A stretch of DNA of 64,000 bases, taken from the NCBI GenBank assembly GCA_913058395.1, contig CAJXQI010000004.1, positions 124,001 to 188,000 on the forward strand, read 5' to 3'. A model generated the notes under the pieces. That model did no database searches, was not told the DNA's origin, and saw only the letters and a program-made list of their open reading frames with translations. The position numbers were made by a program, and so were the translations under genes. The DNA is from an uncultured Colwellia sp. GTDB taxonomy: Bacteria; Pseudomonadota; Gammaproteobacteria; Enterobacterales; Alteromonadaceae. Positions 21,619 through 33,433 of this stretch are shown one piece after another (within the stretch, counting starts at the first letter, position 1; every line of letters starts with the position of its first letter).

Positions 21619-24426
21619 ATGTTAAGTTTTAAACCAAGCCGAGTAACTTTGGCTTTGCTATCAAGCGGTTTTATGGCACTAAGTTTACCTGTTCTTGCAG
21701 AAGAAACGGTAGATGAAAAAGCAAAAGCAGAAGAGAAACAAATTGAAGTAATTGAAGTAAAAGGCTTTCGTGGAAGCATCATTGAATCAATTAATACAAA
21801 GCGCTACTCATCTAGCGTAGTAGAAGCTATATCAGCTGAAGATATTGGTAAATTACCGGACTCTTCTATTGCAGAATCATTAGCTCGTTTACCAGGGCTT
21901 GCAGCACAGCGTTTAGATGGTCGTGCAAGTAAAGTCAGTATTCGTGGCTTTGGTGAAAATGAAAGTGCAACGACTTTTAATGGTCGTGAGCAAGTATCTA
22001 TCGGTGACAACCGTGGCGTAGAATTTGACTTATATCCGTCAGAAATAATGAGTGGTGTTACTGTATATAAAACCCCTAATGCTTCGTTAGAGGGAGAAGG
22101 TATTGCTGGTGTTATTGATATGCAAACAGCTAAGCCTTTATCAAAATCTGAACGTGTTCTTCAATTTAACGGTCAACTAGAGCAAACTAGCTTTGATAAA
22201 CTAAATCCAGACGGCAATGACAGCGGCTACCGCGGTACATTTGCATACATGGATAAGTTTGCCGATGATACTATCGGTGTTGCATTTGCTCATTCAAAAA
22301 TGAGCTCGCCAAACCAAGAAAAACGTTGGAACGCGTGGGGTTACCCTGAATTTACCTATGATGATGGTTCGAAAGGGTCTATCCTTGGTGGTGCAAAACC
22401 ATTTGTTCGTTCATCAACGTTAGATCGTGACTCTACTATGCTTGTTATCGAAGCTGCGCCTACAGACGAGTTGTTGATAACATTTGATGCATTATATGTT
22501 GATTTTTCTGATGAAAAAATTCTACGTGGTATTGAAGTACCATTTGCTTGGGGCCAAGGCTCTATTTCCCCTGACACAGCTGTTATTGACCCTGAAACGG
22601 GTTTTGTAACCAGTGCCATTACAGAAGGGCAGCGAGTTGTTGTTCGTAACGATTACGAAGAGCGTAATGCTAAACTGAAATCTTTTGGTTTTAACGCACA
22701 GCATGATCTTAACGACAATTGGGCGTTAGATTTTGATGTAAGCTACTCGAAAGTTGACCGTGATATTTGGAGTGTTGAAAGTTACGCAGGCACAGGCCGT
22801 GGTGATTCACGTGGCGCAGCCGATACATTAGGCTATACGTTTGACGGCGGGAATACAGGTGCAACATTTACTCATGGTTTAGATTATAGTGACTATAACC
22901 TCATTCAATTGGGCGGCCCACTTTCTTGGGGTTGGAGCCAAGCGTTAAATGATAAATATGGCGTTACAGGTACGGAATACGAAAACCAATTACAAGACGG
23001 CTTTATAAACGCGCCAAGTATTGATGACGAACTTAAAGCAATTAAATTGGCAGCAACGCAAGAAATTGAAAACGATGTTATTGCTAGAATTACCTACGGT
23101 GTTTCATATCGTGAGCGTGAAAAAGTGAAAGAGTCTGAAGGTTACTTTATGACGCTTTCGTCTTTTTCTTATCCTGATAATCCTGGCATGATGGTAGTAC
23201 CAGAGCAATACCGCCAAGGTACAGCATCATTAGACTTTATTGGTATGGGCGATATGATCGCTTATGACACACAAGGTTTAATTAGAGATGGTTATTATGA
23301 CCTAACACGTGAAAGTTTAACTAACTCTAGCCATGCAACGAAATCTTGGTTAGTGAATGAGAAAGTTACTTCATTATTTGTTCAAGCTGATATCGACACG
23401 GAAGTTGCTGGTTTCCCAGTAACAGGTAATGTTGGTGTACGTTATGTACAAACGGATCAAAACTCTCAAGGTTCAGCAATTCAGACTATTGATGGCAAAG
23501 TTGTTACAACACCAACTGATATTAGTCATGACTACTCAAATGTATTACCAAGTTTGAACTTATCAATGCGTATTGATGATGAGCAAAACTTACGTTTTGG
23601 CATCGCTAAAACAATTTCTCGTGCTCGTTTAGATGAAATGAACGCATCAGTAAGTGCATCTTATAACCAAACACCTGACGACAACGGTAATAACTGGAGT
23701 GTTAGTGGTGGTAACCCATTACTTGAGCCAAAAGAAGCGCTAGGTATTGATTTGTCATACGAAAACTATTTCAGTGATGAGGGTTATTTTTCAACGGCGT
23801 TTTTCTGGAAAGATTTAGATCAGTGGATTTTTGATGGTACTTATGAAGTTGATATGTCAGGTGTTGCTGACCCTGCAACAGGAGAAATACCAGAAAACCC
23901 AATAGCATCAGGCTCAGGTAAAGTTAATGGTGGTGGCGGTACGCTTTGGGGTTACGAAATATCAATTTCATTCCCATTCAAACTTATCGACGAAAGCTTA
24001 GACGGCTTTGGTTTAATTGCTAGCCACACTGAAGTTGAATCAGATATTGATGACCATAATGGTAACGACTATCTGTTACCTGGCCTTTCAGATAGTATTC
24101 AAAATGTTACGTTTTACTATGAGAAAAATGGTTTTCAATTCAGAACCAGCATGCGTAAGCGTGATGATTTTAAAGGCGATGTATACGGTTTAGGGTTCTC
24201 AACAACGCAAGTTGATATTGTTGGTGAAACAGTGTGGGATGCTCAAATTGGTTATGACTTCGGTGAAGCAGGCATTACTGTGTTAGACGGTTTGTCAGTA
24301 TTCTTACAAGGTTACAACCTAACTGAAGAGCCATTTACCTCGCTACAAGGTGATAATGCTCTGCAAGTAAGAGATTACCAAGATTATGGTCGTACTTACT
24401 TGCTAGGCTTCAGCTATAAGCTGTAA
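21619..24426 (+). CDS. TonB-dependent receptor for alpha-glucan oligosaccharides
   Basis: Outer-membrane active transporter of 935 residues. A signal peptide (LALLSSGFMALSLPVLA) and a TonB-box-like IEVIEVKGFRGS (about residues 40-55) come first. The plug domain (about 60-180) has IGKLPDSSIAESLARLPGL and VSIRGFGENES, and the beta-barrel ends in the aromatic LLGFSYKL typical of outer-membrane proteins. The length and plug wording fit the large receptors that Alteromonadales use for sugars. The operator shared with GH97 and pullulanase, and the downstream halogenase-type gene, point to maltodextrin uptake. GGGGAG sits close upstream of the ATG. An intrinsic terminator follows. Confidence 0.9.
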   Translation: MLSFKPSRVTLALLSSGFMALSLPVLAEETVDEKAKAEEKQIEVIEVKGFRGSIIESINTKRYSSSVVEAISAEDIGKLPDSSIAESLARLPGLAAQRLDGRASKVSIRGFGENESATTFNGREQVSIGDNRGVEFDLYPSEIMSGVTVYKTPNASLEGEGIAGVIDMQTAKPLSKSERVLQFNGQLEQTSFDKLNPDGNDSGYRGTFAYMDKFADDTIGVAFAHSKMSSPNQEKRWNAWGYPEFTYDDGSKGSILGGAKPFVRSSTLDRDSTMLVIEAAPTDELLITFDALYVDFSDEKILRGIEVPFAWGQGSISPDTAVIDPETGFVTSAITEGQRVVVRNDYEERNAKLKSFGFNAQHDLNDNWALDFDVSYSKVDRDIWSVESYAGTGRGDSRGAADTLGYTFDGGNTGATFTHGLDYSDYNLIQLGGPLSWGWSQALNDKYGVTGTEYENQLQDGFINAPSIDDELKAIKLAATQEIENDVIARITYGVSYREREKVKESEGYFMTLSSFSYPDNPGMMVVPEQYRQGTASLDFIGMGDMIAYDTQGLIRDGYYDLTRESLTNSSHATKSWLVNEKVTSLFVQADIDTEVAGFPVTGNVGVRYVQTDQNSQGSAIQTIDGKVVTTPTDISHDYSNVLPSLNLSMRIDDEQNLRFGIAKTISRARLDEMNASVSASYNQTPDDNGNNWSVSGGNPLLEPKEALGIDLSYENYFSDEGYFSTAFFWKDLDQWIFDGTYEVDMSGVADPATGEIPENPIASGSGKVNGGGGTLWGYEISISFPFKLIDESLDGFGLIASHTEVESDIDDHNGNDYLLPGLSDSIQNVTFYYEKNGFQFRTSMRKRDDFKGDVYGLGFSTTQVDIVGETVWDAQIGYDFGEAGITVLDGLSVFLQGYNLTEEPFTSLQGDNALQVRDYQDYGRTYLLGFSYKL

Positions 24427-24445
24427 AGTAAACTAGCAATTACTT

Positions 24446-24479
24446 AGCCCTTGTAATATATGTTGCAAGGGCTTTTTTA
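24446..24479 (+). terminator. Intrinsic terminator after the TonB receptor
   Basis: AGCCCTTG (24446-24453) pairs with CAAGGGCT (24466-24473), followed by TTTTTT. It lies between the receptor and the halogenase gene, so downstream expression probably depends on read-through or a separate promoter. Confidence 0.8.
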
Positions 24480-24517
24480 GTTAAATACTTTCAATAAATG
24501 TTCTGGTAGAGGTAGCA

Positions 24518-26008
24518 ATGAACAAAGCGAAAATATCGAATGTTGTAATTGTTGGTGGCGGTACCGCTGGTTGGATTTCGGCTGCACTACTAGCTAAAAC
24601 ACTAGGTAATACGGTTAATATTACCCTAATCGAATCAGATAAAATTGGTATTGTTGGTGTTGGAGAAGCAACCATTCCACCAATGATTAATTTTAATAAT
24701 GCCCTAGGCATTGATGAACGTGACTTCTTAAAGGCAACAAAGGCAACGATTAAACTTGGCATTCAATTTGAAAATTGGAAAGAGCAGGGAAGTAGTTACA
24801 TGCATGCCTTTGGCGGCGTTGGTAAAAATTTCGCTTTTTGTGATTTTCATCATTATTGGCTAAAGAGTCAGGAGTTAGGGATAGCGTCTGATTTTTGGGA
24901 TTTTTCCGTAAACTACCAAGCTGCAATACAAGGAAAGTTTGGAAAATTAACAAACCTTGAAGGGACAAATATTCCAGGTATAACACATGCCTATCACTTT
25001 GATGCCGGGCTCTATGCTAAGTTTTTAAGACAATACAGTGAATCCGCAGGCGTAAAAAGAATTGAAGGTATCATAGAACATGTTGCAGTTAATGAAAGCT
25101 CGGGGCATGTTGATTCCTTAACACTTGATAGCCAGCAAGTTATTACCGGCGACATTTTTATTGATTGTTCCGGCATGAAAGGACTATTAATAGAAAAAGC
25201 GTTAAATACGGGCTATGAAGATTGGTCGCATTGGTTACCTTGTGATCGCGCGATGGCAATGCCAACGACTTCAACAGGTACTATTAAACCTTTCACTCGC
25301 TCAATTGCACACGAGGCTGGTTGGCAATGGCAAATTCCACTGCAACATAGAACCGGTAATGGCATTGTTTACGCTAGCCGCTATTTAGATGATGAAAGTG
25401 CCAAGAAAATATTAATGAATAATATTGAAGGTGAGCCACTTGCAGAGCCAAAAATAATTCCTTTTAAAACAGGTAGGCGAAGAAAACAGTGGCATAAAAA
25501 TGTTGTTGCTATTGGGCTTTCAAGTGGTTTTTTAGAGCCACTAGAGTCAACCAGTATTCACCTAATTCAAACCGCTGTTATACGTTTAATTAAACATTTT
25601 CCTCATCAGGGAATTAAACAAGAAGAAGTTGATGAATTTAACCGACAATCAAAAAATGAAATCGAAAAAATACGTGATTTCATTATTTTGCACTATAAAT
25701 TAAACCAGCGTGATGACTCGCCATTTTGGCGTGAATGTCAGCGTATGGATATTCCTGAAACACTCGCGCAGAAAATGGCGTTGTTTAAATCTTCAGGGAA
25801 GGTTTTTCGAGATTATGAAGACTTATTTACCGAAATAGCTTGGCAGCAAGTAATGATAGGTCAAGGGCTAGTACCAGGTGATGTGCACCCATTGAGCAAT
25901 ATGTTGAGCAAAGATCAACTTGAAGATTTATATGAAAATTTGCGAATATTAATTAAACGCTCCGTTGATAAATTGCCATCGCATGAAGAATTTCTCAGTA
26001 ATATTTAA
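24518..26008 (+). CDS. Flavin-dependent tryptophan-halogenase family protein
   Basis: FADH2-dependent halogenase fold, 496 residues. The FAD-binding GGGTAGW is at residues 13-19. Lys79, in [12 protein letters not shown], falls at the same number as the catalytic lysine of PrnA. The halogenase signature GWQWQIP is at about residues 267-273 and the [10 protein letters not shown] motif holds the Glu that pairs with the lysine. Halogenases beside TonB receptors are common in marine Alteromonadales and Caulobacterales, and a few (BrvH-like) brominate indole in vitro. The natural substrate here is unknown and its link to sugar uptake is unexplained. Confidence 0.87.
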
Positions 26009-26031
26009 CCACTTTTTAAAGAGTTAGCAGA

Positions 26032-26949
26032 ATGAAAACAGTATTTTTAGATAATAACGAGCTCGAATCTTCACGTTTTATATACGGTTGTATGCGTATT
26101 GCTGGCGATAACAGTATCGAAGATCGTAACAAAGGTAAGCAAGCTGTAATGGCGGCAATTGAAGCGGGTTATAACCACTTTGATCTTGCTGATATATACG
26201 GTGGCGGTGCGTGTGAAAGCCTCTTTGGCGAAATATTAGCGGAAAAGCCGCATTTACGTGAACAAATCATCCTTACCTCTAAAGCGGGAATTCGCCCACG
26301 TACTAGTGATGAAGTTTACGCACCGACACGTTATGATTTTAGTCAGCAGTATTTATTGGAAAGTGTTGAAGGTTCGCTCAAACGCTTAAATACCGACTAT
26401 TTAGATATGTTTTTATTACATCGTCCAGATTACTTATTCGATGTTCATGAAGTCGCTGAAACCTTTGCGTTATTAAAAGCGAGTGGCAAGGTTAAGCATT
26501 TTGGTGTTAGTAATTTCAAACCATCGCAAGTTGAACTATTAAAGTCTGCTGTATCGATGCCGTTATTGGTCAACCAAGTAGAAATCAATATTCATAATAT
26601 CGATACCTTGCTTGATGGCACGTTAGATCAATGTCAGCAGCATGGTATAACACCTATTGCTTGGTGTCCTTTAGGTGGCGTTGTGTACTCTGCGTGGGGT
26701 AATACATTTGCTGTTGAAGATGAACAACGTATTGAAAGTGAACTAGCCAAGCAAAGCGAAAAATATGGTTGTTCTCCATGGCAAGTTATTTTAGCTTGGT
26801 TGTTAAAACATCCTGCTGGTATCTGCCCGATTATTGGCTCAACAACACCAGAACGTATAGTGGCAGCGAAGCTAGCACTCACCCTAGATTACTCTCGTGA
26901 AGATTGGTATCGCTTGCTTGAAGCAAGAAATGGCCAACAAGTGCCTTAA
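26032..26949 (+). CDS. Aldo/keto reductase, YdhF-like
   Basis: NADPH-dependent carbonyl reductase on a TIM barrel, 305 residues. The catalytic tetrad is visible: Asp and Tyr in FDLADIYGG, Lys in LTSKAGI, and His in FLLHRPD. The C-terminal phosphate-binding part is CPIIGSTTPERI. It starts 23 bp after the halogenase gene and is probably co-transcribed with it. It may reduce a sugar aldehyde, but no substrate can be read from the sequence. Confidence 0.87.
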   Translation: MKTVFLDNNELESSRFIYGCMRIAGDNSIEDRNKGKQAVMAAIEAGYNHFDLADIYGGGACESLFGEILAEKPHLREQIILTSKAGIRPRTSDEVYAPTRYDFSQQYLLESVEGSLKRLNTDYLDMFLLHRPDYLFDVHEVAETFALLKASGKVKHFGVSNFKPSQVELLKSAVSMPLLVNQVEINIHNIDTLLDGTLDQCQQHGITPIAWCPLGGVVYSAWGNTFAVEDEQRIESELAKQSEKYGCSPWQVILAWLLKHPAGICPIIGSTTPERIVAAKLALTLDYSREDWYRLLEARNGQQVP

Positions 26950-27714
26950 AATCTTGATGGTTTTTACATTCAAGTAATGTAAATATTAGTTAAGGCATTA
27001 TTAATTGCTGGTAGCGTTCAAAAGATAAACTTTTAATCACATGTGCCTACTAGCAATTTATATCATTTCAAACTATTGAAAAAGGGTTAAAAATCTCGAT
27101 TGCTTTCAACCCCAATAACCAGCTGTTGGTCAATCGAGGGCCTTACCTTGATTTATTTTTCCTGCGCACAACAAGTTCACAAACTTAATGAAACAGGTAT
27201 GACTTTAAAATTGCGTAGTTTTACTATTATATTTATTACTTAGAAAAACTTCATTTTTCAAATCTTGTATTAATAATTCGCACTTTCTTTGTAGAAATTG
27301 ACGACTTTGAAAAATAAATTAAATTAAATTTTCTATTACATCTACACATCATAACTACTTATCTCTCTACCATTTCTCGGTATCGAAAATATTTACATAA
27401 TGTTTGTAATTGACCAGAGTTGCATTTTATTGTTTTAAATACAATTGATTAGGGGTAATCGATATGTTTGTAATCAACAGGTATATCATCATTGTTTTCT
27501 AAATAAATTGCCACGAACTGCAAATGCGCGATTATATTTCAAATAATTTTTCACTGCGCTTTTGGGAAATTAATTTAAATAAAACGATGAAATTACTCGA
27601 TAACTTCTCAGGTCAAATTAAGCAGTTACCATGAGAGTCTTGTCATATTTTTAGTAGACTAAGAACAAATTGGGCTAAAGTTAAACTTAACGTTTTAAAA
27701 GAACAGGAATAAAC
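26950..27714. other. 765-bp gene-free gap before the bufferin operon
   Basis: No frame longer than a few dozen codons looks real. A small hairpin (TTTACATT/AATGTAAA, 26963-26983) follows the reductase gene. A structured segment lies at 27084-27138. The 3' part (27400-27714) is AT-rich and presumably carries the doxX promoter. No metal-regulator box is recognisable. Confidence 0.55.
27084..27138. other. Structured segment with overlapping inverted repeats
   Basis: CTCGATTG (27095-27102) pairs with CAATCGAG (27131-27138). Inside it ACCA-GCTGT-TGGT (27118-27130) forms a second stem. GGGTT (27084-27088) can alternatively pair with AACCC (27108-27112). It could be a decayed repeat or a small RNA; neither is shown. 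Confidence 0.35.
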
Positions 27715-28317
27715 ATGGTTAAAACAATATTGGAAAAAGGTTACGGCTTATTAAACTCGAGCAAAAAATTGGACTTTCTTGCACCGTTATTAATGCGTTT
27801 GTATTTAGTGCCGATTTTTTGGATGGCGGGAACGCATAAAATTGAGGGGTTTGACAATATTGTACAGTGGTTTGGAAATGACGATTGGGGTTTAGGATTA
27901 CCATTCCCATTTCTTTTAGCTATTTTAGCCATAGGTGCTGAAGTTGTTGGTGCTATTGCTTTATTACTGGGTTTTGGTGTGCGTTTAATGGCGGTTCCTA
28001 TGATGTTTACTATGATCATAGCCATGACTTCTGTTCATGGGCAATACGGCTGGCAAGCGATTGCTGATGCTAATGCCCCGTTTGCTAATGAACGTGTACA
28101 GGCATCCGTTGAGAAAAAAGAAGCCATTGTTTCTATCTTACAAGAGCATGGTAACTACGAGTGGCTAACTAGCAGCGGCAATATCACTATTCTAAATAAT
28201 GGTATTGAGTTTGCGGCAACTTATTTCATTATGTTGCTGGCATTGTTTTTTATCGGTGGTGGACGCTATGTCAGCCTTGACTACTGGTTTAAACGAAAAG
28301 TAATGCCTGACGCATAA
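27715..28317 (+). CDS. DoxX-family membrane protein of the bufferin operon
   Basis: Inner-membrane protein of 200 residues with four or five hydrophobic helices. MRLYLVPIFWMAGTHKI and LLAILAIGAEVVGAIALLLGFGVRLMA are the typical DoxX pattern. DoxX-type proteins commonly accompany DUF692/MNIO RiPP clusters, where they may help redox handling or export. Here it is the first gene, 45 bp before the precursor. ATG at 27715 has AGGA six bases upstream. A long hydrophilic insertion (about residues 112-155) lies between helices. Confidence 0.85.
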   Translation: MVKTILEKGYGLLNSSKKLDFLAPLLMRLYLVPIFWMAGTHKIEGFDNIVQWFGNDDWGLGLPFPFLLAILAIGAEVVGAIALLLGFGVRLMAVPMMFTMIIAMTSVHGQYGWQAIADANAPFANERVQASVEKKEAIVSILQEHGNYEWLTSSGNITILNNGIEFAATYFIMLLALFFIGGGRYVSLDYWFKRKVMPDA

Positions 28318-28362
28318 ATAACTTACAAAGATAATAATTCAACAGAACAATCGGAGAGTATG

Positions 28363-28833
28363 ATGAACCACAACACTAAAACTAAATTTCAAGGTGCTGC
28401 TGTTGCACTTGCTGTAGCTGGCTTAATGGGCTGTTCTGCAGTTGCGACTGAATCGTCTAGCAAAACTGCTGCAGCTAACAGCAATACAGCTGAAATGGCA
28501 CATTGTTACGGCGTTAATAAATGTAATGGTCATAACGACTGTAAAACCGCTGAAAATGCCTGTAAAGGTCAAGCGTCTTGTAAAGGTCATGGCTTTGTTG
28601 CCATGGATACCAAAACTTGTGGCGATATTGGCGGCACAGTTAAAGATGATTGGCGTGGCGCAGTTAATACCGCTGAATTAACGCATTGTTATGGTGTTAA
28701 TGTTTGTAAAGGTCACAATGACTGTAAAACAGCTGAAAATGCCTGTAAAGGTCAAGCAGCATGTAAAGGTCATGGCTTTGTTGCTCTTTCAGCACAAACT
28801 TGTGACGATGTTGGAGGTACAGTTGGCGAATAA
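28363..28833 (+). CDS. Bufferin-type Cys-rich RiPP precursor (BufA2-like) with duplicated core
   Basis: Putative metal-binding peptide precursor of 156 residues. A hydrophobic signal (AAVALAVAGLMGCSAVA) ends in a lipobox-like LMGC. Two 61-codon repeats follow, each with six cysteines in the pattern HCYGVN-C-GHNDC-TAENAC-GQ-C-GHGF...TC. In bufferins the MNIO enzyme converts such cysteines to thiooxazoles that bind copper. GGAG sits six bases before ATG 28363 and only three before ATG 28360, so I prefer the second ATG. The stop overlaps the likely start of the maturase gene. The family call is strong. The metal and the modified residues are inferred. Confidence 0.85.
   Translation: MNHNTKTKFQGAAVALAVAGLMGCSAVATESSSKTAAANSNTAEMAHCYGVNKCNGHNDCKTAENACKGQASCKGHGFVAMDTKTCGDIGGTVKDDWRGAVNTAELTHCYGVNVCKGHNDCKTAENACKGQAACKGHGFVALSAQTCDDVGGTVGE
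28483..28830 (+). repeat. Tandem in-gene duplication, period 183 bp
   Basis: Copy 1 begins at 28483 and copy 2 at 28666. The stretches encoding GHNDCKTAENACKGQ and CKGHGFVA are nearly identical in DNA (for example GCTGAAAATGCCTGTAAAGG occurs in both), while synonymous and few amino-acid differences separate the rest. This is a duplication of the precursor core. Confidence 0.9.
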
Positions 28834-29719
28834 GCAAGCTGTCGGCAACATGAAAGGAGAGCATTCGCTCTCCTTTTCTAAAACTTCCGTTCCAGAACAC
28901 TTTTTAGGATTTGGCTTAGGGCTTAGAACCGAACACTTTCAAGACGTTATTGATAACAAACCAGCAATTGATTGGTTTGAAGTCGTGTCTGAAAACTTCA
29001 TGGTTGATGGTGGAAAGCCTAAACATTATTTGCACAGTATTCGTGAACATTACCCTATGGTCATGCACGGCGTTTCTTTGTCGATAGGTTCAACTGACCC
29101 GATTAACTTTGACTATTTACGAAAGCTAAAGGTGCTCACGAATGAACTTCAACCAGAATGGATTTCAGATCATTTATGTTGGACTGGCGCTCATGAAAAA
29201 AATAGTCATGATTTACTGCCTCTACCATATAACGATGAAGCATTAACGCATGTTTGCCAACGTATTGAGCAAGTACAAGAGTTTTTAGGACGACCAATAT
29301 TACTAGAAAACGTGTCTAGCTATTTGACCTATAAAAACTCTGAAATGACCGAATGGCAGTTTTTCAATGAAGTTGCGCGTCGCTCTGGCTGTGAAATATT
29401 ACTAGATATTAATAATATTTATGTCAGTGCTCGTAATCATGACTTTAAACCTGAAGATTACCTTAATGGTATTGCTAAGGAAAAAGTGAAACAATTTCAT
29501 TTAGCCGGTCATAGTGATTATGGCGATTATGTTATTGATACTCATGATCACCCTGTGGCTGATCCTGTTTGGCAGCTATACCAAAAGGCATTACAGCGCT
29601 TTGGTTGGATAAGCACCATGATAGAACGTGATGACAATATTCCACCATTAGCAGAGTTACTGGCTGAAGTTGATACTGCCCGAGCAATTGCGAAAAAAAC
29701 CTTAGGTTCGATCACATAA
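28823..29719 (+). CDS. DUF692/MNIO bufferin maturase (BufB-like)
   Basis: Multinuclear non-heme iron oxidase that modifies cysteines of the precursor. About 298 residues on a TIM barrel. Probable iron ligands: EVVSENFM, MHGVSLSIGS, LLENVSSYL, LLDINNIYVS, HLAGHSD, IDTHDHPV and MIERDD. Start: TTG at 28823 has a perfect GGAGG five bases ahead and overlaps the precursor stop by 11 bp, suggesting coupled translation. ATG at 28850 has no SD. The frame is open further upstream inside the precursor but that part is a shadow. A hairpin (28853-28876) lies just inside the coding region. Confidence 0.88.
   Translation: MANKQAVGNMKGEHSLSFSKTSVPEHFLGFGLGLRTEHFQDVIDNKPAIDWFEVVSENFMVDGGKPKHYLHSIREHYPMVMHGVSLSIGSTDPINFDYLRKLKVLTNELQPEWISDHLCWTGAHEKNSHDLLPLPYNDEALTHVCQRIEQVQEFLGRPILLENVSSYLTYKNSEMTEWQFFNEVARRSGCEILLDINNIYVSARNHDFKPEDYLNGIAKEKVKQFHLAGHSDYGDYVIDTHDHPVADPVWQLYQKALQRFGWISTMIERDDNIPPLAELLAEVDTARAIAKKTLGSIT
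28853..28876 (+). promoter_or_regulatory. Hairpin at the precursor/maturase junction (possible attenuator)
   Basis: AAAGGAGAGC (28853-28862) and GCTCTCCTTT (28867-28876) make a perfect 10-bp stem with an ATTC loop, followed by TCT. It lies 20 bp after the precursor stop codon. It could stabilise the precursor mRNA 3' end or partly terminate transcription, so that precursor is made in excess of enzyme. Confidence 0.6.
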
Positions 29720-29813
29720 ACTGCAATATCATTTTAATGTGTAATGCAGAATAACGAGTTAAGAGTTTTCTAAAAAATAAATGATTAAAATAAAAAAATG
29801 AGTAAAAAATAAC

Positions 29814-30590
29814 GTGAGCGAACTTTCATTACACGCGCTGCAGCAACAAATGATGAATTATCTAACCGATGATGAATTAACGATTGCGCAGCAAGTTGAA
29901 GAGCATGGCGGTATTAGCCGTGATGCCCGTTTACACATCTATAAAAACGCTTATCAAATGCGTTTAAAAGAAACCATCGATAACGATCATGAACTATTAG
30001 GCATGTACTTAGGTGATGATTTATTTGATCAAATGGTCGATGGTTACATTAAAGCTTATCCATCTAACAATACCTCATTACGTAATTTTGCCGACGCATT
30101 ACCAGAGTTTCTCGCTAAACATACGCCGTTTAGTGATTATCCATTAATTAGCGAGTTAGCGCGCTTTGAGCGTTTATTGATGGTGGCATTTGACGCCGCC
30201 GATACCGAACGTTTTACTCGAGAGTTGCTAATAGAAATACCACATGAGCAATGGCCGAGTTTAGTTTTCCGCTTTCATCCTAGTTTACAAATCAGTCATT
30301 TTAACTTTAATACAGTGGAAACTTGGCAAGCATTAAAACAAGAACAAGCACCACAACCAGCAACTAAAACAGCTAATACTTGGTTAGTGTGGCGAAACAA
30401 ACAGCGTTTAACGCAATTTAGGTCAATTTCCACAATCGAATTTTCATTATTTGACATGATGCTTAAAGGCAATGACTTTTCCAGCCTATGTGACTATTTG
30501 CTCACACAAAACCTTGAAGAAGATGTTAGCCAAGTTGCGCTAAATTATTTATTGGCATGGATTGATGATGGTATTTTAGCTAATCGCTAA
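29814..30590 (+). CDS. DUF2063 / HvfC-BufC family RiPP partner protein
   Basis: Cytosolic partner of the MNIO enzyme, thought to bind the precursor. 258 residues. The N-terminal DUF2063 region has SRDARLHIYKNAYQMRLKETI and the following LGDDLFDQMVDGYIKAYPSNNTSLRNFADALPEFL, characteristic of the family. The start is GTG at 29814 without a good SD; a five-codon ATG frame (ATGAGTAAAAAATAA) ends just before it. It lies 94 bp after the maturase gene and completes the order doxX-precursor-maturase-partner. Confidence 0.85.
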   Translation: MSELSLHALQQQMMNYLTDDELTIAQQVEEHGGISRDARLHIYKNAYQMRLKETIDNDHELLGMYLGDDLFDQMVDGYIKAYPSNNTSLRNFADALPEFLAKHTPFSDYPLISELARFERLLMVAFDAADTERFTRELLIEIPHEQWPSLVFRFHPSLQISHFNFNTVETWQALKQEQAPQPATKTANTWLVWRNKQRLTQFRSISTIEFSLFDMMLKGNDFSSLCDYLLTQNLEEDVSQVALNYLLAWIDDGILANR

Positions 30591-30856
30591 ACGTCAGTTT
30601 TTTCAATCTAGCAATTAATGCTTACTTCTGTCTAAAAATAGTACTAGTTGCTTGCTTTCTACCCTTAATCTTTAAGGTTTCTTACGCTTTTCTTACAATT
30701 TCTCAACAAAGTATTTATTGCTCTTAGCGATAAATAGGCTTAATTTAACCTTAGATTTAATTGGTTAGCTTTCTGAACTTAAGCGGAGACTAACTTACCT
30801 TTTTGTTGTTTAAAAGTGACAATATTAAAGAACCTTTGGGAAATAGTATTATTCAG

Positions 30857-32278
30857 ATGAACAAACACATTTCAACCAGCGTAGTGGTGACAGTGCTAAT
30901 TACTGTATTGTCTGGTTGTGCCTCATTACAGTTTGCTGACATTTTTCAAGACTACAGTAGTCAAATGAAGCCAGTAAAAGCGGCGCAGCGACAAGGTGAG
31001 TTTGTTAAAGCGCAAAGCATTTTGGGGCAACGCTCGGCAAGTAATGGCAGTTATGTACTTAGTTTACTTGAGCGAGCACGTTTACAGTTTTTAGCGTCTG
31101 ACTTTCAGGCTAGCCAAAAAACCTTTGCTCAAGCTTATGTGTTAATAGAACAACAACGAAATAAAGCAAAAATACAAATTAGTAAAGGCATAGAAAAACT
31201 TGGAGCAGTAGTCAGTAACGACAATGCTATTTCTTATCAAGTGCCTTACTACGAGCAAGGTATGTTACATAGTTACCAAGCGCTAAATTACTTATTTCAA
31301 CATGACTTTGAAGGCGCATTAGTCGAAATTCGCCGAGCAAATCTGGTACAAGAAAATGCCTTGAAAGCTTATCAAGACGAAATTTACAAAGCTGAAAGTG
31401 AGTTGGCTAATTCGGGTATGAGCTCTGGTAGTTTGGATGGTACTTATCCTAGTATGGCTGAAAGCATTGGAGAGGTGAAAAATGGTTTCCAAAATGCTTT
31501 TACTTTTTACCTTTCAGGCATTTTATATGAAGCAAGCGGTGAGCTAAATGATGCATACATCGACTACAAAAGAGCGATAGAAATATATCCGGAGAATCAT
31601 TACTTACAGCAGGATGTTTTACGATTAGCGACAAAGCTAGGTATGCAAGATGATTTAGACGAATTTGAACAACGTTTTGGCTCATATCAATCAGAAAAAT
31701 CTGAAAGTGAAGGGCAGGTGGTTATACTTTTCGAGCAAGACATTGTTAATAGTAAGCAAGACGTAGGCTTAAATTTACCCATTGGTAGAAGCAATAGAGG
31801 TTTAAAGTTTTTTAGTTTCTCTTTGCCTGTTTATCGTGGAACATTGCCACAACACAGCAATTTAACGGTAAGTAATGCGGGTGAAAGCTACGAGTCAAAC
31901 GAATTGGTGCGTATTCAATCGTTAGCGGCAAAAGATTTACAAGACCAATTACCGTCATTATTAACCCGACAAGTTGTTCGAGTTGTTGCCAAAGAGCAAA
32001 TGAGACAAAAACTTAGCCGTGAAGCCGGTGATGTTGGCAATATATTAGCAAGTATTTATAACATTGCTTCTGAAAGAGCTGACACACGCAGCTGGTCAAC
32101 CTTGCCTGATGAAGTTGATATTGTGCGAATGAGTGTGCCAACAGGCAAGCAATTATTGCAAGTACAGGTGCATGGGCAAATGCAAAACATTGAAGTAAAT
32201 GTGCAACCAAATAGAATTACCTTAATCAATTTTTCTGCTATCGGTAACTATACTGGTTATCAGAGCATTAATTTATAA
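30857..32278 (+). CDS. COG3014-family lipoprotein with TPR-like region
   Basis: Outer-membrane lipoprotein of about 473 residues. ATG at 30857 gives a clean lipoprotein signal, MNKHISTSVVVTVLITVLSGC; the frame opens 18 codons earlier at a TTG. The middle contains helical TPR-like repeats (QNAFTFYLSGILYEASGELNDAYIDYKRAIEIYPE). In many gammaproteobacteria this family lies just before ycfL and lpoB, as here. Its function is unknown; a part in envelope or peptidoglycan maintenance is inferred from that neighbourhood. Confidence 0.85.
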   Translation: MNKHISTSVVVTVLITVLSGCASLQFADIFQDYSSQMKPVKAAQRQGEFVKAQSILGQRSASNGSYVLSLLERARLQFLASDFQASQKTFAQAYVLIEQQRNKAKIQISKGIEKLGAVVSNDNAISYQVPYYEQGMLHSYQALNYLFQHDFEGALVEIRRANLVQENALKAYQDEIYKAESELANSGMSSGSLDGTYPSMAESIGEVKNGFQNAFTFYLSGILYEASGELNDAYIDYKRAIEIYPENHYLQQDVLRLATKLGMQDDLDEFEQRFGSYQSEKSESEGQVVILFEQDIVNSKQDVGLNLPIGRSNRGLKFFSFSLPVYRGTLPQHSNLTVSNAGESYESNELVRIQSLAAKDLQDQLPSLLTRQVVRVVAKEQMRQKLSREAGDVGNILASIYNIASERADTRSWSTLPDEVDIVRMSVPTGKQLLQVQVHGQMQNIEVNVQPNRITLINFSAIGNYTGYQSINL

Positions 32279-32335
32279 AACAATGAAATCCACACAGAAA
32301 AACTGTGGTGTAAAGTGAATAAACCAGGAGGAAGC

Positions 32336-32812
32336 ATGTTGAATAGCAAGAAGAGTAAAACAATGAGTCAAAAATTTGCATGTAGTTTAAGTGTGATACT
32401 ACTCAGTGCTTTTGTTATTACTGGGTGTGCGAATAACAAGCCTCCTGTGACATCAGGCACGGGAACAAGCCCAATGACCCAAGGTGACGACTTTAATAAA
32501 CACCTTGAAATACATAACGATGAACTCGCAGAACGTTTATATATTAGCGATGTAAAGTCACGTAAAAATAATGGCTTATTAGAAGTGAATTTAGAACTCA
32601 TAAGCCGCTACGAAAAGTCGCAAAAATTGCAATATCATTTTAATTGGTTTGATAGTGACGGCTTTGTTATCGAATCAAGAAAAACATCCTGGAAGCCTTT
32701 AGATTTACATGGTTTACAGTCAACAACATTACGAGGTTTAGCACCTAATATAAATGTTAGTACGTTTAATGTTTATGTTCGTGAAATCCCTGAAAAAGCA
32801 TACGAATATTAA
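32336..32812 (+). CDS. ycfL: YcfL-family lipoprotein
   Basis: Lipoprotein of about 158 residues with lipobox ITGC. ATG at 32336 follows a consensus AGGAGG; an in-frame GTG seven codons upstream has no comparable site. The domain (YHFNWFDSDGFVIESRKTSWKPL) matches the YcfL family, a beta-sandwich of unknown role that sits beside LpoB. The gap to lpoB is 18 bp, so they are co-transcribed. Confidence 0.85.
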   Translation: MLNSKKSKTMSQKFACSLSVILLSAFVITGCANNKPPVTSGTGTSPMTQGDDFNKHLEIHNDELAERLYISDVKSRKNNGLLEVNLELISRYEKSQKLQYHFNWFDSDGFVIESRKTSWKPLDLHGLQSTTLRGLAPNINVSTFNVYVREIPEKAYEY

Positions 32813-32830
32813 TAGTTAAGGAAAAGAATT

Positions 32831-33433
32831 ATGAACAAACTAGCACTGATAACAACCCTAGGCTTAACACTAACGCTTGCCGTTGGTTGTGCTAATAAAT
32901 CTGTTGTACGTTATGGCGATGCCACGGCAGTAGAAACGACAGACATTAACTTTGGTTCAACAGACTTACAAAAAGTTGCTGCTGAAATGACTGACTCATT
33001 ATTACTTTCACCAGTAGTAGGTACCTTAACGCAAAATAAACGCCCAGTGATGTTCGTTGAACGCCTGAAAAACAAAACTAGCGAGCATATTGATACTGAA
33101 TCAATTACCGACTCTATTTCAACTAAACTATTACGCTCAGGCAAGTTCCGTTTTGTTGATATGGGCCGAGTAGAGGCGGCACGTGAACAGCTGAAATTCC
33201 AACATGAAGGCGGCATGGTTGACCCAAATAAAGCTTTACAGTTTGGCCGTCAAATTGGCGCACAATATATGTTGTACGGTAACTTATCGAGTATCGTAAA
33301 AAGTAATCAAGATAAATCAGACGTTTACTATAAATTTACTTTACGCTTAATGGACCTTGAAAGCGGCCTTGTTGAATGGGCTGACGAAACTGAAATTCGT
33401 AAAACTAAAGCGAAAGAATCTGTTGGTTGGTAA
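32831..33433 (+). CDS. lpoB: Penicillin-binding protein activator LpoB
   Basis: Outer-membrane lipoprotein that reaches through the periplasm to stimulate PBP1b. 200 residues, lipobox LAVGC near residue 20. The linker is shorter than in E. coli, followed by the globular domain with VMFVERLKNKTSEHIDTESITDSIST, FRFVDMGRVEAAREQL and YMLYGNLSSIVKS. Co-directional with ycfL and the COG3014 gene. Confidence 0.88.
   Translation: MNKLALITTLGLTLTLAVGCANKSVVRYGDATAVETTDINFGSTDLQKVAAEMTDSLLLSPVVGTLTQNKRPVMFVERLKNKTSEHIDTESITDSISTKLLRSGKFRFVDMGRVEAAREQLKFQHEGGMVDPNKALQFGRQIGAQYMLYGNLSSIVKSNQDKSDVYYKFTLRLMDLESGLVEWADETEIRKTKAKESVGW

Follow-up and report, generated by a model that had tools for sequence, protein, structure and literature searches.

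The window analysed here, a 64,000-nucleotide stretch of contig CAJXQI010000004.1 from an uncultured Colwellia sp., carries on its forward strand, from 27715 to 30590, a consecutive array of four genes for a DoxX-family membrane protein, a cysteine-rich precursor, an MNIO (DUF692) enzyme and a DUF2063 protein. It is considered very probable that this array, from a marine bacterium resembling Cognaticolwellia, is a bufferin operon of the Buf2 type (12-Cys) and that it functions as follows. After synthesis of the precursor in the cytoplasm, the MNIO-DUF2063 pair would, judging from characterised relatives, convert several Cys residues in each of the two cores to 5-thiooxazoles; the likeliest targets would be the inner four Cys of each core, above all those followed by Lys. 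The product would then be exported by Sec, probably lipidated at its lipobox and anchored in the envelope, and would there buffer excess Cu(I), with DoxX serving as an accessory membrane protein. By their sequences, the two cores constitute one conserved two-domain unit with a fixed 61-residue period, and this would double the metal-binding capacity of each chain. The system is already known, and its doubled domain has been described in a close relative of the source bacterium; the remaining interest lies in a hairpin between the precursor and maturase genes and in the fixed spacing of the two cores.

Assignment of the operon rests on curated family models. The first gene (27715 to 28317) encodes a protein of 200 residues of the DoxX/HvfX family (NCBIfam NF050144 HvfX, 226.9 bits with a cut-off of 80; Pfam DoxX, 70.7 bits with a cut-off of 23.6), and the second, bufA2 (28360 to 28833; alternative start at 28363), encodes a precursor of 157 residues with 13 Cys that matches NCBIfam NF050166 BufA2 in two stretches (147.5 bits; cut-off 60). 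The third, bufB (28850 to 29719), encodes an MNIO maturase of 289 residues which scored 394.8 bits with NCBIfam NF050167 BufB (cut-off 310) and 384.7 bits with Pfam PF05114 (MbnB_TglH_ChrH; cut-off 25), and fell under the cut-off of the NCBIfam HvfB model (277.4 bits; cut-off 360); its reading frame is open from 28691, and the ATG at 28850 is the last in-frame start before the conserved part of the protein. The fourth (29814 to 30590; GTG start) encodes a bufC-type DUF2063 partner (PME type 1) of 258 residues (Pfam DUF2063, 62.4 bits; cut-off 27.2). A preliminary description of this DNA, made from the letters alone, had already recognized the four contiguous genes and read them as a bufferin system, and the hidden Markov model search that it proposed supports it: the precursor, maturase and DoxX protein exceed the BufA2, BufB and HvfX cut-offs, respectively, as does the partner that of DUF2063, and the precursor thus does belong to a bufferin family. 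The precursor gave nothing over the Pfam cut-offs and no match up to an E value of 1 with DUF2282, the Buf1 precursor family, and inspection of its translation by eye found none of the EGKCG repeats of the oxazolin precursor type; with both the family match and the repeats missing, its assignment to either type was rejected.

The first six-Cys core of the precursor spans 28483 to 28641 and the second 28666 to 28824, and when the genome was searched, the BufA2 model matched the two separately, with 80.3 and 77.3 bits, respectively. A repeat search placed the copies at an offset of 183 nucleotides (61 codons) with 86% DNA identity across 119 nucleotides, and a further matching stretch of 29 nucleotides at the same offset; the pair was absent from the list of Tandem Repeats Finder. 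Over a 47-residue core window, the copies are 77% identical as protein and 79% as DNA, so that the 61-codon period and the six Cys per repeat given in the preliminary description stand, and its wording "near-identical" is somewhat strong. The 12 potentially modifiable or metal-binding thiols that it counted are present, and a thirteenth Cys lies within the lipobox; Lys follows three and four of the Cys in the two copies. The cores are 61 residues apart in 44 of 44 doubled loci collected in genome surveys, as well as in 78 of 80 loci from named genomes, two sets that overlap in some genomes. This recurrence, together with the separate match of each copy to the model, indicates that the doubling is not a matter of chance. 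In an alignment of 43 of the 44 doubled precursors (A1; L046 left out), all 12 columns of core Cys are fully conserved, in keeping with the 6 or 12 Cys of the BufA2 family.

The spread of the doubling was followed in genomes at increasing distance. BufA2 was found above its cut-off in 20 of 196 genomes of the family sample, with a total of 21 loci, each of them doubled, while in the order sample it was found in 30 of 394 genomes, 25 of them with the doubled and five with the single form. The class sample gave a match in 68 of 369 genomes, two of which had already been counted; the match table of the other 66, at E 1e-8, held no two full cores in one frame, with possible partial repeats in two (G897 and G907), and given this limit a weak second core would go unlisted in both the order and class samples. 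The whole doubled set comprises 44 loci in 43 genomes. The best 80 of 246 relatives from a scan of named genomes, which include Cognaticolwellia, Colwellia, Pseudoalteromonas, Shewanella, Amphritea and Marinobacterium, were also all doubled, a count that is biased because the query itself is doubled. The BufA2 model matched none of 14 control genomes, while the MNIO model did find a match in Caulobacter vibrioides, and hence the former may overlook some Buf2 precursors. The view that a tandem core is unusual is not upheld by this survey of repeat number: the form has been published (PMC12452194), and it is the commoner one among BufA2-bearing genomes of the order sample.

The suggestion that the source genome owes its two cores to a recent local duplication, or to an error of assembly, derives some appeal from the DNA identity of the copies noted above, but it is scarcely credible given the identical spacing in all 44 doubled loci and agreement of the window's own copies at just nine of 15 comparable fourfold sites. 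In a tree of 101 rows, moreover, the window's copy 1 sits among the first copies of its genus and its copy 2 among the second; on the basis of this copy-by-copy placement and the recurrence across loci, recent duplication or artefact was rejected. The doubled units cluster apart from the single-core units with a support of 98/95, the latter being 13 units from the 12 of 35 single-core loci that fit a strict pattern, and copies 1 and 2 form mostly separate groups (seven changes each, compared to a mean of 32.9 after shuffling), in a tree of 47 columns with many forks open and an unsettled bootstrap. Within a genome, the copies nevertheless resemble each other more closely than they do between congeneric genomes, to a degree reached by four of 5000 shuffles for protein, 0 of 5000 for DNA and two of 2000 for synonymous codons. 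This effect is small and driven mainly by three genera outside the family (f6g57, f16g67 and f12g63); in the genus of the window it is nil for protein (0.783 within and 0.783 across) and slight for DNA (0.793 and 0.787). These patterns are read as one old duplication with later, small homogenisation, and they point to the double core as a long-established, fixed architecture rather than an oddity of one genome. Plasmid searches revealed nothing close to the operon; the best relative, on a large Pseudoalteromonas replicon, has a precursor 65.7% identical over 69%.

A separate observation concerns the residue that precedes GG in the two copies. For copies 1 and 2, respectively, it is V and I in 27 of the 44 loci, I and V in 12, I and I in two and otherwise in three; the 80 named loci gave V-I in 46, I-V in 24, A-I in five, I-I in four and I-A in one. 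In these overlapping sets, the same residue is thus rarely present in both copies, an asymmetry that perhaps reflects packing between the two domains, with shared ancestry as an alternative.

For the MNIO, PDB 3bww is a relative of solved structure (E 1.3e-44). Across 19 aligned MNIOs (alignment A3, of 18 rows and a Buf1 enzyme from the source genome; L046 and L049 were left out of this and of the 18-row alignment A2, and L051 gave no MNIO or DUF2063 hits), residues H73, D107, H108, E153, N154, D186, N188, N189 and H217, and likewise D230, H232, E259 and D261, do not vary, and the conserved blocks also stand in 3bww. These residues are presumed to be metal ligands or catalytic. The enzyme has the motif ERDD, in which the Asp that follows the presumed catalytic Asp occupies a candidate Cys-Lys-type site, matched by inference to the numbering of PMC12668002; Asp is found there in 14 of 18 Buf2 MNIOs. 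Enzymes of the Cys-Lys type have Asp at the corresponding site (PMC12668002), whereas the MNIO of EGKCG captophorins has Phe. The window precursor contains both HNDCK and NACKG, which have been tested as common captophorin motifs (PMC12668002).

The DUF2063 partner was compared initially with partners of the HvfC/BufC type. It scored 51.2 bits with the NCBIfam HvfC model (cut-off 142), and consequently it was filed as a DUF2063/PME1-type protein, not as HvfC itself, and examined by fold. Its AlphaFold2 (AF2) model, built from 18 sequences, reached a predicted local distance difference test (pLDDT) value of 89.4, and the best match of this predicted model was 3dee (NGO1945, with an RRE domain; Foldseek E 1.7e-7; template modelling score 0.81 by target), a protein that has been termed PME1 (PMC12668002). 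The next matches were to chain A of two TglHI structures, which by its length is probably the partner TglI, and the leader-binding protein of a lasso peptide (6jx3_B) was matched with an E value of only 1.2; a comparison with the sequences of solved structures gave nothing up to E 1.

The genes concerned also travel together. An MNIO is linked to the precursor at 19 of 20 family loci and 78 of 80 named loci, and precursor, MNIO and DUF2063 occur together at 19 of 20 and 75 of 80, respectively, the named loci being the best matches to the doubled query; linkage of homologous precursors to DUF692 genes, on which the preliminary description depended, was therefore found. This association of all three genes, as well as the match of the predicted partner fold to PME1, argues against the proposal that the Cys remain unmodified or form disulphides, with the precursor acting as a metallothionein-like or redox lipoprotein and the MNIO acting elsewhere. 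That proposal is judged improbable, though it draws on the indication that some precursors may be unmodified (PMC12452194), on the partner's score below the HvfC cut-off, and on one doubled locus, L051, where the stretch examined gave hits to neither MNIO nor DUF2063. The L051 locus is located on contig C26 of genome G047, which also has a complete doubled locus (L053).

Several observations weigh against a modified, copper-binding double core matured by this enzyme pair, including the partner's shortfall with HvfC. At the site proposed to mark the Cys-Lys type, four of the 18 Buf2 MNIOs carry Ala and not Asp. FonBC, which belongs to another enzyme group, left test peptides with HNDCK and NACKG unprocessed (PMC12668002), and so a cognate enzyme would be needed. 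A disulphide between the first and last Cys has been reported for Buf1 (PMC12452194). Finally, AF2 modelled the precursor poorly (pLDDT 60.9), and thus the duplicated domains of the published model were not recovered; a fold search with this model returned a single, uninformative match (E 7.5), and the precursor had zero matches up to E 1 among the sequences of solved structures.

As for the ligand, the precursor could serve another metal or stress, such as zinc, mercury, silver or oxidants, through the same modification chemistry. Fusions of MerC to bufferins are known and other metals have been suggested (PMC12452194), and none of the 12 other annotated proteins in the window, where most genes are unannotated, bears a copper-specific family name. 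Set against this, the characterised 5-thiooxazole peptides bind copper (PMC12668002), and a role with another metal or stress is regarded as unlikely.

Export and anchoring of the copper-binding product are suggested by the N-terminus of the precursor (28360 to 28434), which is hydrophobic and, by pattern and inspection, ends in the lipobox LMGC; its Cys, at codon 25 (codon 24 with the start at 28363), is the thirteenth of the protein and makes a lipid anchor probable. The "secreted" precursor of the preliminary description is corrected in that the protein is probably a lipoprotein and not freely secreted. A lipobox is present in 29 of the 44 doubled loci (28 by script and L056 by eye), and in 20 of 21 in the family; a looser pattern, which was not relied on, gave 68 of 80 named loci. 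In the other 15 doubled precursors, which are those of L037 and of several loci outside its family, an ordinary-looking signal peptide replaces the lipobox, by lineage. Approximately 16% of Buf2 precursors have predicted lipoprotein signals (PMC12452194), and lipidation has been predicted for a subset of bufferins (PMC12636315). The lipidated MNIO products dyb and ned share with the window a probable lipoprotein signal on an MNIO substrate, while those tested come from other precursor families (PMC12636315). Through the window, a bufferin with a doubled core and a probable lipid anchor can be assigned to a common group of marine Gammaproteobacteria.

Among known systems, the closest is the 12-Cys Buf2 of Cognaticolwellia aestuarii, which has the same BufA2 family, two six-Cys domains, MNIO and DUF2063 (PMC12452194). 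Six Cys are present in 90% of Buf2 precursors and 12 in the rest, and the AF2 model of C. aestuarii WP_077285100 displays duplicated domains (Antoine et al. 2025, PMC12452194). A C. aestuarii contig (L120) was found to carry a doubled precursor 90% identical to that of the window in the same doxX-first gene order, and we infer that it is this modelled accession; it is a congeneric homologue with no essential difference found. The Buf1 and Buf2 systems of Caulobacter share MNIO and DUF2063 maturation with the window, whereas the common Buf2 form has six Cys (PMC12452194) and the window precursor has twelve and a lipobox. Oxazolin/fontiphorin (EGKCG) captophorins, in which 5-thiooxazoles are installed and copper is bound (PMC12668002), likewise share the MNIO and DUF2063 partner, and differ in that the window precursor has Cys-Lys motifs and no EGKCG repeats.

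Between the bufA2 stop codon and the maturase gene, a hairpin with an 11-bp stem, a 4-nucleotide loop and a U-rich 3' arm was found by folding and by its recurrence in relatives (28852 to 28877, forward strand); its first base is the last base of the maturase ATG. This computed structure probably lowers synthesis of the enzyme relative to the precursor, which would offer a simple account of how much more copper-binding peptide than maturase could be made. With a folding z of -1.5 to -1.8 relative to shuffles, the hairpin of the window alone proves little, and a promoter and terminator scan of the region gave no excess over shuffles and did not list it. Across loci, however, the 90 nucleotides from the bufA2 stop have z < -2 in 33 of 44, compared to 0 of 44 inside bufA2 and four of 44 inside the MNIO gene, and 26 of 44 show a terminator-like pattern, compared to 12 of 220 shuffles and five of 44 inside the MNIO gene; for the named loci, the figures are 39 of 78 and, in the control, two of 78.

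It is quite possible that the hairpin merely protects an mRNA end or is a chance fold, leaving maturase dosage unaffected: its z value is not extreme, the T run that follows is short, and by genus a majority of loci have a stem of at least 9 in only eight of 16 genera, the related loci not being independent. Yet a stem of at least 8 is present in 31 of 44 loci, compared to 0 of 44 inside the MNIO gene and 0 of 37 after its stop (a control often already within the next gene), even though the hairpin sequences differ by lineage. In loci with a single core and an MNIO, the contrast is weaker (24 of 31 compared to nine of 29), and two of the 35 rows of that set (L089 and L099) are apparently in the wrong frame, with one Cys. 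An effect on dosage remains the preferred reading, and a broader proposal is advanced tentatively: that the Buf2 hairpin is a partial terminator or start-site block, conserved in place though divergent in sequence, that keeps substrate far in excess of enzyme, and that the cores of doubled forms are a rigid unit with 61-residue spacing, whose similarity is maintained by occasional recombination and which binds copper cooperatively, not as two separate beads. The main texts of PMC12452194 and PMC12668002 mention neither a hairpin, a terminator nor attenuation, and PMC12538549 mentions no terminator; on this point, the literature search was confined to these three reports.

With respect to the position of doxX, a copy immediately upstream on the same strand was found in the window, at four of its 20 relative loci from the family sample (these four share its genus) and in three of 80 named loci (L116 and L120, both Cognaticolwellia, and L117, titled uncultured Colwellia). 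The survey used E limits of 1e-3 to 1e-4 and flanks of 3-4 kb, which divergent DoxX proteins may escape; in these samples, the arrangement with doxX immediately before the precursor gene seems confined to a single genus. The doxX-first order, called unusual at the outset, is indeed uncommon among doubled-core relatives, but doxX itself is a core gene of bufferin clusters (PMC12452194). Alignment of five congeneric upstream regions revealed a conserved block of 24 nucleotides at 27602 to 27625 (forward strand), which is possibly a regulatory site of the operon. Among 196 loci, several of which are one place repeated, this block is confined to those of the same genus. It occurs once in the genome at three or fewer mismatches, as does a reversed control pattern, and hence no regulon can be read from it.

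Upstream of the operon (21619 to 26949), the window encodes consecutively a TonB-dependent receptor, a tryptophan-halogenase family protein and an aldo/keto reductase. The operon is followed, at 30803 to 33433, by genes for a TPR lipoprotein-like protein, a DUF1425 protein and one that we take to be LpoB-like; L054 and L055 have the same three genes next to bufA2, there on the other strand. Elsewhere in the source genome, a second cluster (L057; contig C14, 32000 to 41500) encodes a bufferin system of the Buf1 type, with a DUF2282 precursor of 95 residues (78.7 bits), an MNIO, a DUF2063 protein and DoxX. A hairpin is visible by eye in this cluster, where the script picked a different stem, and nearby are genes for a permease distantly similar (below cut-off) to Cu/Zn efflux transporters, a thioredoxin and a YHS-domain protein.

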